A stretch of DNA of 64,000 bases from Candidatus Krumholzibacteriia bacterium (GTDB lineage Bacteria; Krumholzibacteriota; Krumholzibacteriia; Krumholzibacteriales; Krumholzibacteriaceae). Both the position numbers and the translations under genes were made by a program. Below the pieces are notes generated by a model, which ran no database searches, was not told the DNA's origin, and saw only the letters and a program-made list of their open reading frames with translations. Every line of letters begins with the position of its first letter. Positions within the stretch are counted from its first letter, which is position 1. The stretch covers positions 40,594 through 104,593 of the forward strand of contig JAGLYV010000077.1 in assembly GCA_023131975.1 (NCBI GenBank), written 5' to 3'. Shown here piece after piece: positions 33,844 through 39,212 of the stretch.

Positions 33844-34416
33844 ATGGGAACTTATCAGGCAAGAACTCTTCGAGTAATTTTCGCCTGCTGCGTGATCGCG
33901 CTGGCAGGTTCCTGCTCACCTTCCCCAAAATACATGGGGAAGAAGAGGGACAATGAGCAGAAATCGGCGCCCCCTGCCACCACCAAAAGGCAACTGAAAC
34001 CAGAGAAAACGGCTTCTCTTGGTAATCCTGTCGGTGATTTTAATATTTCCATGATAACCAGCCTTTACGGCCTCAGAAAACATCCGCGACACAAGACTAT
34101 GGAATTCCATCCGGGAATAGATATCGACACAGAAATGGGCGAAGCTGTTCTTTCGGTCGCTGACGGTGTAATAATATTTTCCGGAAAACAGGGTGGATAT
34201 GGTAATGTGATCATTGTAGAGCATTCTGAAGAGTTCTGCACAGTATACGCTCACCTCGCGCTCATGGTAGTGACAAAAGGTGATGTAGTACACAGGGGGG
34301 AGCTTATCGGCAACGTAGGAGTGACAGGTAATTCTACTGGTTCACACCTTCATTTCGAAGTGAGGATCAACGGGAAAACGGTCGACCCGCTTGATTACCT
34401 CAAAATCAGCAAATGA
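33844..34416 (+). CDS. M23-family (NlpD-like) peptidase-domain lipoprotein
   Basis: Lipobox-like IALAGSC; YGLRKHPRHKTMEFHPGIDIDTEMGEAVLSVADGVIIFSGKQGGYGNVIIVEH...GNSTGSHLHFEVRINGKTVDPLDYL. Confidence 0.9.
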   Translation: MGTYQARTLRVIFACCVIALAGSCSPSPKYMGKKRDNEQKSAPPATTKRQLKPEKTASLGNPVGDFNISMITSLYGLRKHPRHKTMEFHPGIDIDTEMGEAVLSVADGVIIFSGKQGGYGNVIIVEHSEEFCTVYAHLALMVVTKGDVVHRGELIGNVGVTGNSTGSHLHFEVRINGKTVDPLDYLKISK

Positions 34417-34433
34417 CCTTTACGGGAAGAAAG

Positions 34434-35267
34434 ATGACAACTGACAGAAAAACCTCCAGTATAGACAGCAGATATTTCGAAGATGTGGGGCGCTATCCAC
34501 TTCTTTCCAGAAGCGAGGAAATCGAACTTGCCAGAAAGATCAGAGATGGTGATGAGGAAGCCAGAAAGATACTTATTCTCAGCAATCTTAAGCTGGTTAT
34601 TACAATCGCGAAATCGTATTCCTCATACGGAGTTCCTTTTCTCGATCTCATCGAAGAGGGGAATCTCGGGCTTATAAAGGCCGTCAGCCGCTTTGACCCC
34701 GAAAAGGGATTCCGCTTCTCTACATATTCATCCTGGTGGATCAAACAGTCCATCGTAAGGGCCATTTCAAACTTTTCAAGGACGATCAGGATCCCCATTC
34801 ATGTATTCCAGCTGATGAAGAAGTACATGGCAGTGGAAAAGACTGCCGAGAACATGAGCCAGGAAGAAAAAGCTGACGTGCTGGGTATTTCCAGCAAAAA
34901 ACTTCGTATGATCGAGAATCTGGTCATGAATATCAAGGCATTGGATGTGTCGAGTAGTGTTGATTCATTCAATGAGCTTGCTACCAATTTTGACCCACCA
35001 GACGATACCGATGCTGAAAAGATAATCCTTCAGCAGATCGAACATGAGGAATTATCACGTCTTTTGGACAGGTTGTCTGAGAGAGAAAAACTTATCCTCA
35101 AGATCCGCTATGGATTTGATGATGGAGTCACACACACCCTGGCAGAAACAGGCCTGGTGATCAAGGTGTCCAGGGAAAGGGTCAGACAGCTTGAAGTCAG
35201 AGCATTGAGAAAACTTCGGTGCCTTCTAGAGGCCCAGGATCCAGCCGAAGAGAACCTCTGCCAATGA
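34434..35267 (+). CDS. Sigma-70 family RNA polymerase sigma factor (RpoS/RpoD-like)
   Basis: YFEDVGRYPLLSRSEEIELARKIRDGDEEAR...NLKLVITIAKSYSSYGVPFLDLIEEGNLGLIKAVSRFDPEKGFRFSTYSSWWIKQSIVRAI; region 4 ERVRQLEVRALRKLR. Confidence 0.94.
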   Translation: MTTDRKTSSIDSRYFEDVGRYPLLSRSEEIELARKIRDGDEEARKILILSNLKLVITIAKSYSSYGVPFLDLIEEGNLGLIKAVSRFDPEKGFRFSTYSSWWIKQSIVRAISNFSRTIRIPIHVFQLMKKYMAVEKTAENMSQEEKADVLGISSKKLRMIENLVMNIKALDVSSSVDSFNELATNFDPPDDTDAEKIILQQIEHEELSRLLDRLSEREKLILKIRYGFDDGVTHTLAETGLVIKVSRERVRQLEVRALRKLRCLLEAQDPAEENLCQ

Positions 35268-35853: not shown

Positions 35854-35930
35854 GCCCCCGTAGCTCAGGTGGATAGAGCACCGGTTTCCTAAACCGGGTG
35901 TCAGACGTTCGAGTCGTCTCGGGGGCGCCA
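35854..35930 (+). tRNA. tRNA-Arg(CCT)
   Basis: GCCCCCG...CGGGGGCGCCA; CCGGT-TTCCTAA-ACCGG anticodon arm; CCA encoded. Confidence 0.96.
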
Positions 35931-35976
35931 TATATAAAAAGGGAATAGCTTTAAAAAGCCGTTCCCTTTTTATATA
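35931..35976. terminator. Bidirectional intrinsic terminator
   Basis: TATATAAAAAGGGAA...TTCCCTTTTTATATA inverted repeat; A-tract/T-tract in both orientations; lies between + tRNA-Arg and a minus-strand candidate RNA. Confidence 0.8.
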
Positions 35977-36112
35977 AAACGAGGTTAGCTATCTCCACAT
36001 TGCTTCACGTGTCATGACCAACCTAAGGCCTGAGCAGCAAGATCGCTCCGCTAAAAGATAGGCTTGGAGCTGATCGATCACGATCGCGTAGAAATCAGCT
36101 ATTGCCCCGTTT
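35931..36112 (-). ncRNA. Candidate abundant small RNA, possibly 6S (ssrS)-like
   Basis: Perfect consensus promoter on minus (TTGACA-N16-TATAAT), about 182 nt to a strong terminator, no plausible ORF; manual folding gives a rod with closing stem, central bubble and apical stem. Confidence 0.5.
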
Positions 36113-36118
36113 GTCCTG

Positions 36119-36146
36119 ATTATATGGGACGCGGAACGTATGTCAA
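36119..36146 (-). promoter_or_regulatory. Perfect consensus sigma70 promoter with AT-rich (UP-like) upstream tract
   Basis: Reverse complement TTGACA TACGTTCCGCGTCCCA TATAAT (16-nt spacer); upstream CATATTAGAATTTGATAAATATTTCATTTTATTCC. Confidence 0.75.
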
Positions 36147-36253
36147 GGAATAAAATGAAATATTTATCAAATTCTAATATGTTTATTATCAAAAGACTAG
36201 GTAGTTATATTCATAAATCACATCAATAATATCAAGGTAGGCGCAAAAGGTAT

Positions 36254-36299
36254 TAAAATGAAACATTCCCGCCGATACACCCTATACCGACGGGAACAT
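36254..36299 (-). terminator. Minus-strand intrinsic terminator downstream of the 15-codon ORF
   Basis: Minus RNA: AUGUUCCCGUCGGUAU-AGGGU-GUAUCGGCGGGAAUGU + UUCAUUUU. All non-Watson-Crick positions are G-U on minus and would be A-C on plus. Confidence 0.6.
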
Positions 36300-36323
36300 T
36301 TATAGAATAGGACCGAGATATCG

Positions 36324-36371
36324 TTAACGCAGCCACCAGAATAAATCGATTATCAGCATAATGGGCAGCAT
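36324..36371 (-). CDS. Candidate 15-aa hydrophobic micropeptide MLPIMLIIDLFWWLR
   Basis: GGAGGTGATT Shine-Dalgarno 8 nt before ATG, TAA stop, terminator 24 nt downstream, TATAAT upstream. Confidence 0.5.
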   Translation of the reverse strand: MLPIMLIIDLFWWLR

Positions 36372-36441: not shown

Positions 36442-36680
36442 AAGTTTAGCTGCATTAAGTGTGCCGAAAGCGTATATCGCTTCGCCTCGCCTGATATATC
36501 AGACGAGGCGTCCCCATTCTACGTTAAAATATATAGTTAGGCGGATAGATAAACCGGCTAAGGTATACAGGATATATTACGCTAATTGTATTGTGGCGTA
36601 TATTCTACCGGATGGGGGTCCTTTATGCTTGCGTTCCGCATTGATGCGATTCTCATTTTTAAGTTCCCAGTAATTCCTGT

Positions 36681-39212
36681 CTATGTATCAGAGTTACCGC
36701 TGGATGCAAATTCCTCCCTGAAATCATCAGATACTTCTTTTGATTTCTCGTTGCGTTTCAGAATGACTATAGTCATGTCATCCTTGTAAAGGCCCTCTCC
36801 GAAAGACATCAGATTGTCATAGAGCGACTCTATCATCTCATCTGCATCGACAGATGAATGCTCCTGTAGGAATCCTGCAAGCCGTGTTTCGCCGAAATAT
36901 TCTTCTCTTGAATTCTCCTGATCGATGATCCCATCTGTATAGATCGCCAGGATATCGTTCTTTCTCAGCTTGATCATTCCCTCCTGATAAACCGATTCGG
37001 GGTCAACACCTACCAGGATACCACCCCTCTTCAACTGAATGACTGTCCCATCACTTCTAATCAACAGGGGAGGGAAGGAGCCGCCGTTACAATAATGAAG
37101 AAGTCCGTTACAGTCATCATATACAGCGTAGAAGAATGTAGCGAATTTACTTACTTCACTTCTGATATAGAGTGATTTATTCAAAGCGGAAAGGACTTCT
37201 CCCGGAGATCTGTCCTCGGTGGCTTCGGCGCGGAAAGATGCCTGGAGAGTCGTCATCAGTAATGATGCCGGGATACCTTTCCCGGAAACGTCGGCCACAG
37301 CGACACCGATCTTCCCGTTATCGAATTCAACGAAATCATAGAAATCCCCACCCACTTCGCGACAGTTTCTCAATCGCCCCTTTATTGTGGAGTGTTTGAG
37401 AAGTGGGGGGGCTTCGGGAAGCAGCCGCTGCTGTATCTTGCTGGCCAGATGGACTTCTTTCTCCAACTTCTCTTTTTCCTTCGATACGTTGAATAACACA
37501 TTACTCCTGATTGCGGCAGCGCTTCTTTCTCCGAGGATTTCGAGCATCTCCGCGTCCGCGCCGTCAAAAGGCTTACCCGATTTTTTTCGTCCTATTATTA
37601 TTAACCCCGGCATCTCGTTCTGCTCGACCATCGGTATGACAACGGAAATGTGAACCATCGATATCAATTCCAGTGAGATCCTGTCGAGATTATTCATGGT
37701 CCAGAGGCTGTCGAAGCATTCCACCATCACTGGTTGCCTCCCGACCCGGGCTATCCTTATCAATTTCATACTTGAGGGCAGGGAGGTAAGTGGCAGAACA
37801 GTCTTTTCGGGTCGACTCTTTCTCCTGACGTATGTATCCGTGTCTTTTTCGAACGTAAAGATATGGACATATTCCGGTGTGAACATCTCGTATATCTCTT
37901 TAGCAGTGAAGTCGGCTATCTCCTCCTGAGATGAGAGAAACTGGATCCGTCTTGAGAACTCGATCATCCTTTCCCTGAATTTCCGTCTGTTTCTGAAAAA
38001 GACCCAGTCCACAAAATGAATGATGCCAGCACGTGCCATCACAAAGGCGATAACAGCAAGCATGAGCACTATCGTCAGCATCGAAAGTTGCTTTCCATCT
38101 GGTAAGCCCGGGAATCTTTCAAAGATATCTCGGGCGAATAAATAGATCATGCTCCCCAGGACCGCTGGCACAAGGACATAGGCCAGACCCGTTTTGAAGA
38201 CGACCCTCATGTCGAACGCGTCATGTCTGAGGATAGCGTAGGCGAAAGAAATCGGCATGAGGGACAGGAACACCATCGAAAAAGTATCAAAAGGTATATC
38301 GAGAGAGGGAGCAAACTGCCTGATAAGCATAACGAAAGTAGCGGGAGCAGTGCCGGCTATCAGGCCTATTGTGGCGATCCTGAATTTGACCCTCTGAACT
38401 TTGTCCGACGTCATATAGGTCCTGATAAAGAGGGAGACTCCTCCGGTCATATAGACAAGCCAGTAAACTGACGCTATTCCATTGAATCCAAGCAGTATGA
38501 ATGAAGGCAGTTCCATCGAATAATTAACAAGCGCGAGGACAAACATCGATAGAAAGATCAGTACCGGAGCAACATACAGGCTTCTCTCGATAGTAGACCG
38601 CTTGGTTCCGGCATGTATCTCCTTTCCCGGAAAAATCAGGAAGAGATGCAGGAACACAGCGGGTAAAAAAGCAAAAACCCCGTCATAAAACACTTCTCCG
38701 ATCACATGGAGCAGGTTAATAGAGGTAGAAGGCCTTTGCGTAAGCAGAAATGCAAACAGGAGGCAGTTGAATGCATAAAGGCGCCCCAGGACATCCTGCC
38801 TTTTATAGATCACGTATGAGCCTACGACCATAAAAATCAGAGCTGTCAGAGAAAGGGCTATCTTTCGAGAAGTCTTGTTACCAGGCTGGTCTATGGTATC
38901 TATTTCCAGATCGAACATAGAGTCAGCCCTGACAATCGTAAAAACCTGGGAAGAAAAGGGAGTGTTGGAACGTGTCAGATATTTGAAATGAATTATGTTC
39001 CTGGGCCGAATACCGTTGACAGCCACTACCCGGTCACCTGCTACCAGGTCTTTTTCGGCGTTGGGACTCTCTTTTTCAAATTCCAGAAAGACAAGGTTAT
39101 TGTGACGGATCCCGTGGTAGGGTGCTCTGGTAAAATCCGCAAGGCCAAAAAGATCCAGGATAGTAATAAGAAAGGCGGTTACCACCAGAGCGATTCTCAG
39201 AGTCCTGGTCAC
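36681..39212 (-). CDS. Membrane sensor phosphatase: PDZ-like + 7TM-type region + GAF + SpoIIE/PP2C domain
   Basis: DLVAGDRVVAVNGIRPRN (PDZ-like), multiple TM helices, EIADFTAKEIYEMFTPEYVHIF GAF-like, KIQQRLLPEAPPLLKHSTIKGRLRNCREVGGDFYDF...VADVSGKGIPASLLMTTLQ (RsbU/SpoIIE). Confidence 0.88.
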   Translation of the reverse strand: MTRTLRIALVVTAFLITILDLFGLADFTRAPYHGIRHNNLVFLEFEKESPNAEKDLVAGDRVVAVNGIRPRNIIHFKYLTRSNTPFSSQVFTIVRADSMFDLEIDTIDQPGNKTSRKIALSLTALIFMVVGSYVIYKRQDVLGRLYAFNCLLFAFLLTQRPSTSINLLHVIGEVFYDGVFAFLPAVFLHLFLIFPGKEIHAGTKRSTIERSLYVAPVLIFLSMFVLALVNYSMELPSFILLGFNGIASVYWLVYMTGGVSLFIRTYMTSDKVQRVKFRIATIGLIAGTAPATFVMLIRQFAPSLDIPFDTFSMVFLSLMPISFAYAILRHDAFDMRVVFKTGLAYVLVPAVLGSMIYLFARDIFERFPGLPDGKQLSMLTIVLMLAVIAFVMARAGIIHFVDWVFFRNRRKFRERMIEFSRRIQFLSSQEEIADFTAKEIYEMFTPEYVHIFTFEKDTDTYVRRKSRPEKTVLPLTSLPSSMKLIRIARVGRQPVMVECFDSLWTMNNLDRISLELISMVHISVVIPMVEQNEMPGLIIIGRKKSGKPFDGADAEMLEILGERSAAAIRSNVLFNVSKEKEKLEKEVHLASKIQQRLLPEAPPLLKHSTIKGRLRNCREVGGDFYDFVEFDNGKIGVAVADVSGKGIPASLLMTTLQASFRAEATEDRSPGEVLSALNKSLYIRSEVSKFATFFYAVYDDCNGLLHYCNGGSFPPLLIRSDGTVIQLKRGGILVGVDPESVYQEGMIKLRKNDILAIYTDGIIDQENSREEYFGETRLAGFLQEHSSVDADEMIESLYDNLMSFGEGLYKDDMTIVILKRNEKSKEVSDDFREEFASSGNSDT

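Follow-up and report, generated by a model that had tools for sequence, protein, structure and literature searches.

Bacterial 6S RNA (RF00013) is a rod with paired ends and few small internal loops, about 180-187 nt long, that is transcribed in single copy from a strong sigma-70 promoter. Bound by sigma-70 RNA polymerase, it serves as a template for pRNAs. A relatively open central bubble is its defining feature, and a 6S RNA trimmed to this bubble and two short arms still completes the 6S cycle (PMC8876501). Bacterial SRP RNA (RF00169) is likewise a rod, with a variable closing stem and a conserved apical domain that is the protein-binding end of SRP. In type I toxin-antitoxin pairs such as tisB/istR-1, zor/orz and ibs/sib, a short hydrophobic peptide gene lies beside the gene of an sRNA complementary to the toxin mRNA. 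Finally, unclassified candidate structured RNAs, for example the 104 motifs of PMC2864571, are recognised by their intergenic position, by covariation and by a promoter and terminator of their own. The locus described here, from the genome of a Candidatus Krumholzibacteriia bacterium (assembly of 2.8 Mb in 171 contigs), resembles each of these in part. Its evidence is of the same class as that for the unclassified candidates, from which it differs in that no Rfam 15 entry matches it.

Positions refer to the window, which is the whole stretch of 64,000 nucleotides that was analysed. The sRNA gene and its convergent neighbour comprise the following features.

35854..35930, plus strand: tRNA-Arg(CCT), the convergent neighbour abutting the sRNA terminator, an arrangement kept in most genomes of the source's own family (f1) and in two f4 genomes
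35931..35976, minus strand: predicted intrinsic terminator of the sRNA (hairpin and U-run), convergent with the tRNA gene
35977..36112, minus strand: sRNA body of about 136 nt, a rod of P1 (closing stem), P2, P2b, P3, P4, P5 and apical P6, delimited by homologues and covariation
36022..36052, minus strand: near-invariant apical domain, AGCGRAGCG..UUGCYGC..GGCCU, with 1.85 bits per column
36119..36146, minus strand: sigma-70-type sRNA promoter, TTGACA-N16-TATAAT, with the -35 TTGACA at 36146-36141, a 16-nt spacer and the -10 TATAAT at 36124-36119
36147..36173, minus strand: AT-rich UP-like tract upstream of the sRNA promoter

An earlier note on this DNA had placed a consensus promoter, an AT-rich tract and a terminator on the minus strand, and all three were found at exactly these coordinates. 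In a promoter scan the sRNA promoter matches the consensus at 12 of 12 positions, and every other site in 6 kb at 10 of 12 or fewer. An identical TTGACA is present in all 24 homologous loci, where it is followed at a spacing of 16-18 nt by a -10 hexamer with 0-3 mismatches. The UP-like tract takes the form of a tGATAA-A/T run in most f1 relatives and is not recognisable in the f4, f7 and f8 loci; U-runs and terminator hairpins are also present in the relatives' sRNA loci. Transcription presumably starts at about 36112, and it is from the promoter that the sRNA is judged to be probably highly expressed. Together with its terminator the sRNA folds at -66.7 kcal/mol (z = -5.0 against shuffles, much of it due to the terminator), and the body without the terminator is moderately stable (z = -2.1). 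The interval had been said to hold no credible ORF, and this stands: a 67-aa ORF that spans it was rejected because homologues differ by indels of 1-2 nt within the segment that is conserved best. Comparison among genomes supports the reading of the interval as a stand-alone gene of a new structured sRNA family of Krumholzibacteriota, with a sigma-70 promoter, a rod whose two ends pair and an intrinsic terminator.

The rod structure is real, as judged from aligned homologues. Helices P1, P2, P2b, P3, P4, P5 and P6 were tested on an alignment made from sequence only (A4, 21 sequences), in which 88% of the P1-P6 cells pair and 17 of the 37 pairs have changed on both sides. The covariation score of 0.244, against 0.168 for shuffled alignments, was reached in none of 500 shuffles, and sliding the partners by 1-3 columns reduced the paired cells from 88% to 34-46%. 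In a tree-aware null, with columns simulated on the tree without coupling, none of 1000 simulations reached the observed summed score, either for all 21 sequences or for f1 alone, and 7-11 single pairs had p < 0.05 where 1.9 were expected. A covariation check in relatives had been proposed in the earlier note; the compensatory changes, which occur in P1 and P2, support the rod. An all-pairs screen that was given no structure yielded no pair at E < 0.05 (21 sequences, low power), and the structural claim therefore rests on the structure-restricted tests.

The hand-drawn fold that had been proposed for the RNA survives in its closing stem, CGTG/CACG, GCC/GGC and apical hairpin, all of which are conserved helices; its CCAA/TTGG pairing is not conserved. 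The asymmetric central bubble of that fold does not hold up, as the site is occupied in relatives by P4 (CUGCUCU/AGGGCGG type; CAGCU/GGUUG in the source). Outside the apical domain, linkers carry 0.3-0.8 bits per column, the lowest values (0.28-0.43 bits) being those of the large open linkers P1-P2 and P4-P3. Both strands of apical P6 are conserved, four of its five pairs never vary, and a 33-nt apical pattern recurs with 0-1 mismatch in nine genomes of f4, f7 and f8.

Homologues in f1 were recovered by DNA search. A first covariance model, built on 15 sequences, found the RNA in 15 of the 20 f1 genomes and in families f7 and f8; a second one, R2, for which the structure was drawn up by hand, added family f4. 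This brings the total to 24 genomes in four Krumholzibacteriota families, with promoter, closing stem and U-run conserved. The sRNA was not found in f2, f3, f5 or f6. Nor was it found by the 33-nt pattern and the model in 307 genomes outside the phylum, where the model negative is weak because the search was shallow; a pattern match in Brachybacterium was taken as chance. At E <= 10 in Rfam 15 the interval returned only the tRNA and chance matches far below the cut-offs, and 14 f1 relatives at E <= 5 and the f7 and f8 loci at E <= 2 matched no family. The proposed check against the Rfam 6S and other models thus gave no family at any threshold tried. A full-text literature search returned no Krumholzibacteriota paper that also mentions small RNAs. 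The RNA combines the features by which a new structured sRNA family is recognised, namely a conserved covarying structure, its own promoter and terminator, and occurrence in several genera. The family is genuine and, as far as Rfam and the literature show, previously undescribed. The unannotated, novel sRNA with a perfect promoter that the earlier note had postulated is thus borne out as conserved and covarying; none of the 24 loci lacks the sRNA's promoter, and there is no match in Rfam.

Upstream of the sRNA, on the same strand, lie the following features.

36261..36301, minus strand: predicted terminator of the micro-ORF unit
36324..36371, minus strand: micro-ORF of 15 aa, MLPIMLIIDLFWWLR, with Shine-Dalgarno (SD) sequence GGAGGTG, upstream of the sRNA in 24 of 24 genomes
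36451..36466, minus strand: sigma-54-type -24/-12 element of the micro-ORF, CGGCACACTTAATGCA
36681..39212, minus strand: SpoIIE-type (PP2C) phosphatase with a GAF domain and a weak PDZ match (Pfam); membrane segments are likely

As compared among genomes, this order of phosphatase, micro-ORF under a sigma-54-like element, and sRNA downstream is conserved. All 24 carriers have the micro-ORF on the strand of the sRNA, at a distance of 240-430 nt upstream from the apical core, and in f1, f2, f4, f5, f6 and f7 the gene next upstream is a phosphatase homologue. An RpoS/RpoD-like sigma-70 family gene is located two genes from the sRNA (34413-35267, plus strand); in f1 it stays next to apt and tRNA-Arg, and in f4 it again lies close to the tRNA.

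The unannotated micro-ORF encodes a hydrophobic peptide, 14-17 aa long in the sRNA carriers, with the motif [IL]DLxWWL[RK] behind a strong SD. Across loci L107-L156 it spans 14-22 codons with a C-terminal D[LI]xWWL[RK], other peptides being, for example, MQKIYLIDLLWWLRR and MLIFLNLLDLFWWLKD. No NCBIfam model matches the peptide, and one Pfam model does so weakly, below the cut-off. Synonymous change prevails among the codon differences (999 synonymous versus 419). The sigma-54-type element scores at least 9 of 12 in 23 of 33 loci, as opposed to 1.9% in shuffled sequence. The terminator hairpin at 36301-36261 (minus strand) has a GGGGUGU-type loop that is conserved in f2 and in many f1 relatives, which is unusual for a plain terminator. 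A Trp-attenuator reading, in which the tandem Trp codons precede this terminator, is disfavoured by the absence of downstream biosynthetic genes, by conservation that extends beyond W to D, L and a basic C-terminus, and by the prevailing synonymous change.

A DNA pattern for the end of the peptide (C-terminus) is present in 58 of the 78 Krumholzibacteriota genomes, versus one control match, so that the pair of phosphatase and micro-ORF either predates the sRNA or is independent of it. Both are present, with the sRNA undetected, in many intact relatives, namely in f5, f6 and one f2 genome (G020), which keeps the micro-ORF and the tRNA with no RNA between them. At least one of the f1 absences, that in G009, is due to a contig end, the assembly stopping just past the micro-ORF. 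Another f2 genome (G022) has a different-looking 133-nt rod with its own promoter between the micro-ORF and tRNA-Arg (L149, 1058-1190, minus strand; -58.9 kcal/mol) and no Rfam match. This rod, which stands before the tRNA where the sRNA is found elsewhere, may be a diverged orthologue of the sRNA, because its apical GCGGUUUUGCUGU resembles the f1 GCGAUCUUGCUGC.

Recognition of the apical hairpin by a protein is tentatively considered the most likely mechanism, because the sequence that is most strictly conserved takes in both strands of the apical helix. The variable stems would form a scaffold that protects the RNA ends and presents the hairpin. The near-invariant hairpin, its 2-nt (A/G)A bulge and the flanking GGCCUCUGA internal strand would be offered to a dedicated protein. 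The sRNA might then act as a constitutively made, Hfq-independent ribonucleoprotein or as a sequestering RNA; the pathway that it serves may be that of the phosphatase and microprotein encoded beside it. Gene, structure, family and linkage of the sRNA emerge from comparison among genomes; its expression, the protein partner and the connection to the phosphatase pathway are what we infer. Such a connection would not be obligatory, since the sRNA goes undetected in f5, f6 and G020, where both the phosphatase and the micro-ORF are present.

The combination of a rod, a conserved apical domain and a variable closing stem recalls bacterial SRP RNA. The interval is not SRP RNA, however, as it has no match to RF00169 and the genome contains a separate canonical small SRP RNA (G000:C119:7182-7281, 74.1 bits). 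Hfq (PF17209) was detected in none of the 78 Krumholzibacteriota genomes by a search that did detect it in positive controls including E. coli and B. subtilis. Hfq-dependent pairing, as of a trans-acting sRNA of that type, is therefore unlikely.

Ranked second to protein recognition is Hfq-independent pairing with distant mRNAs, in which the C/U-rich single strands (CUCUCAAGC, GGCCUCUGA) would mask SD regions. C/U-rich anti-SD loops are common among Hfq-independent sRNAs, and CCUCU-like strands are indeed conserved here outside the helices, where they suit base pairing. Such a role is nevertheless rather unlikely, since the strongest conservation falls on paired positions of the apical hairpin, and the adjacent micro-ORF, the only target examined, showed pairing no stronger than that of shuffles.

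Pairing with that micro-ORF is also the core of a type I antitoxin-like role, in which the sRNA would repress the adjacent hydrophobic 15-aa peptide through its leader. The short hydrophobic peptide ORF adjoins the sRNA in 24 of 24 loci, as in tisB/istR-1, zor/orz and ibs/sib, and it has a strong SD and a separate, predicted regulated promoter. Some single cases look good, such as CCUCUGAAGGG/CCUUUCAGGGG in G018. Overall, however, cognate-leader helices are no better than those with shuffled sRNA or with other families' leaders, and the contact site shifts between genomes. Full-duplex and gapless-helix energies alike are no better than shuffled or non-cognate values, so that the sRNA is not supported as an antisense of the micro-ORF leader; complementarity to the would-be toxin mRNA beyond that level was not found. 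Unlike the known pairs, the two genes lie in tandem on one strand and are syntenic across families, conserved complementarity is lacking, and many relatives have the peptide gene without the sRNA. The retention of the micro-ORF without the sRNA in natural genomes (f5, f6, G020) argues against strong peptide toxicity, and an antitoxin-like role is improbable.

It is very improbable that the sRNA is 6S RNA or a further 6S paralogue, or some other promoter mimic that binds RNA polymerase. Of the 6S-like architecture proposed in the earlier note, only the rod shape, with closing and apical stems (P1-P6), and the strong promoter agree. The sRNA also shares with 6S the paired ends, the few small internal loops and the single copy; overall length is similar in general terms, the body measuring 112-141 nt as opposed to about 180-187 nt for 6S. 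RF00013, for which membership requires at least 46.4 bits, gave no match on the interval at E <= 10, nor in relatives (f1 at E <= 5, f7 and f8 at E <= 2). Conversely, R2 had no credible match among 30 6S loci (one at E = 1.7). A canonical 6S lies at a separate locus of the source genome (G000:C148:9166-9352, 75.8 bits); 6S occurs in 70 of the 78 phylum genomes and coexists with the sRNA in the f1, f7 and f8 carriers. The open bubble that defines 6S is absent, because P4 occupies the P3-P5 region in relatives; the conserved part is the apical domain, whereas a 6S reduced to its bubble and short arms still completes its cycle (PMC8876501). With RF00013 silent, a canonical 6S elsewhere and neither model finding the other RNA, the identification as 6S was rejected. 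One observation on the other side is that 6S was not detected, at E <= 10 with permissive filters, in any of the four f4 genomes (G026, G030, G034, G037), three of which carry the sRNA. This is most simply explained by a 6S that has diverged, but the sRNA may replace a lost 6S there.

The interval might instead be no functional RNA at all but a conserved region of promoter and terminator, or the leader or trailer of an mRNA. The moderate stability of the body alone speaks for this reading, which is hardly credible in view of the promoter and terminator on both sides, the compensatory changes in P1 and P2 and the invariance of the apical domain across families.

Protein recognition therefore remains first in rank. 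In a more far-reaching and quite unlikely version, the phosphatase, the sigma-54-controlled microprotein and the sRNA would constitute one Krumholzibacteriota signalling module, the apical hairpin would be the ligand of a regulatory protein in a new class of ribonucleoprotein, and the f4 sRNA may stand in for 6S. The sRNA adds to the Krumholzibacteriota a well-supported RNA family without an Rfam entry, and its apical domain is an obvious bait for a partner. The micro-ORF is possibly more interesting than the sRNA. A phylum in which Hfq went undetected would have a concrete and testable regulatory module in the conserved set formed by the phosphatase, the sigma-54-like promoter, the microprotein and the structured RNA.
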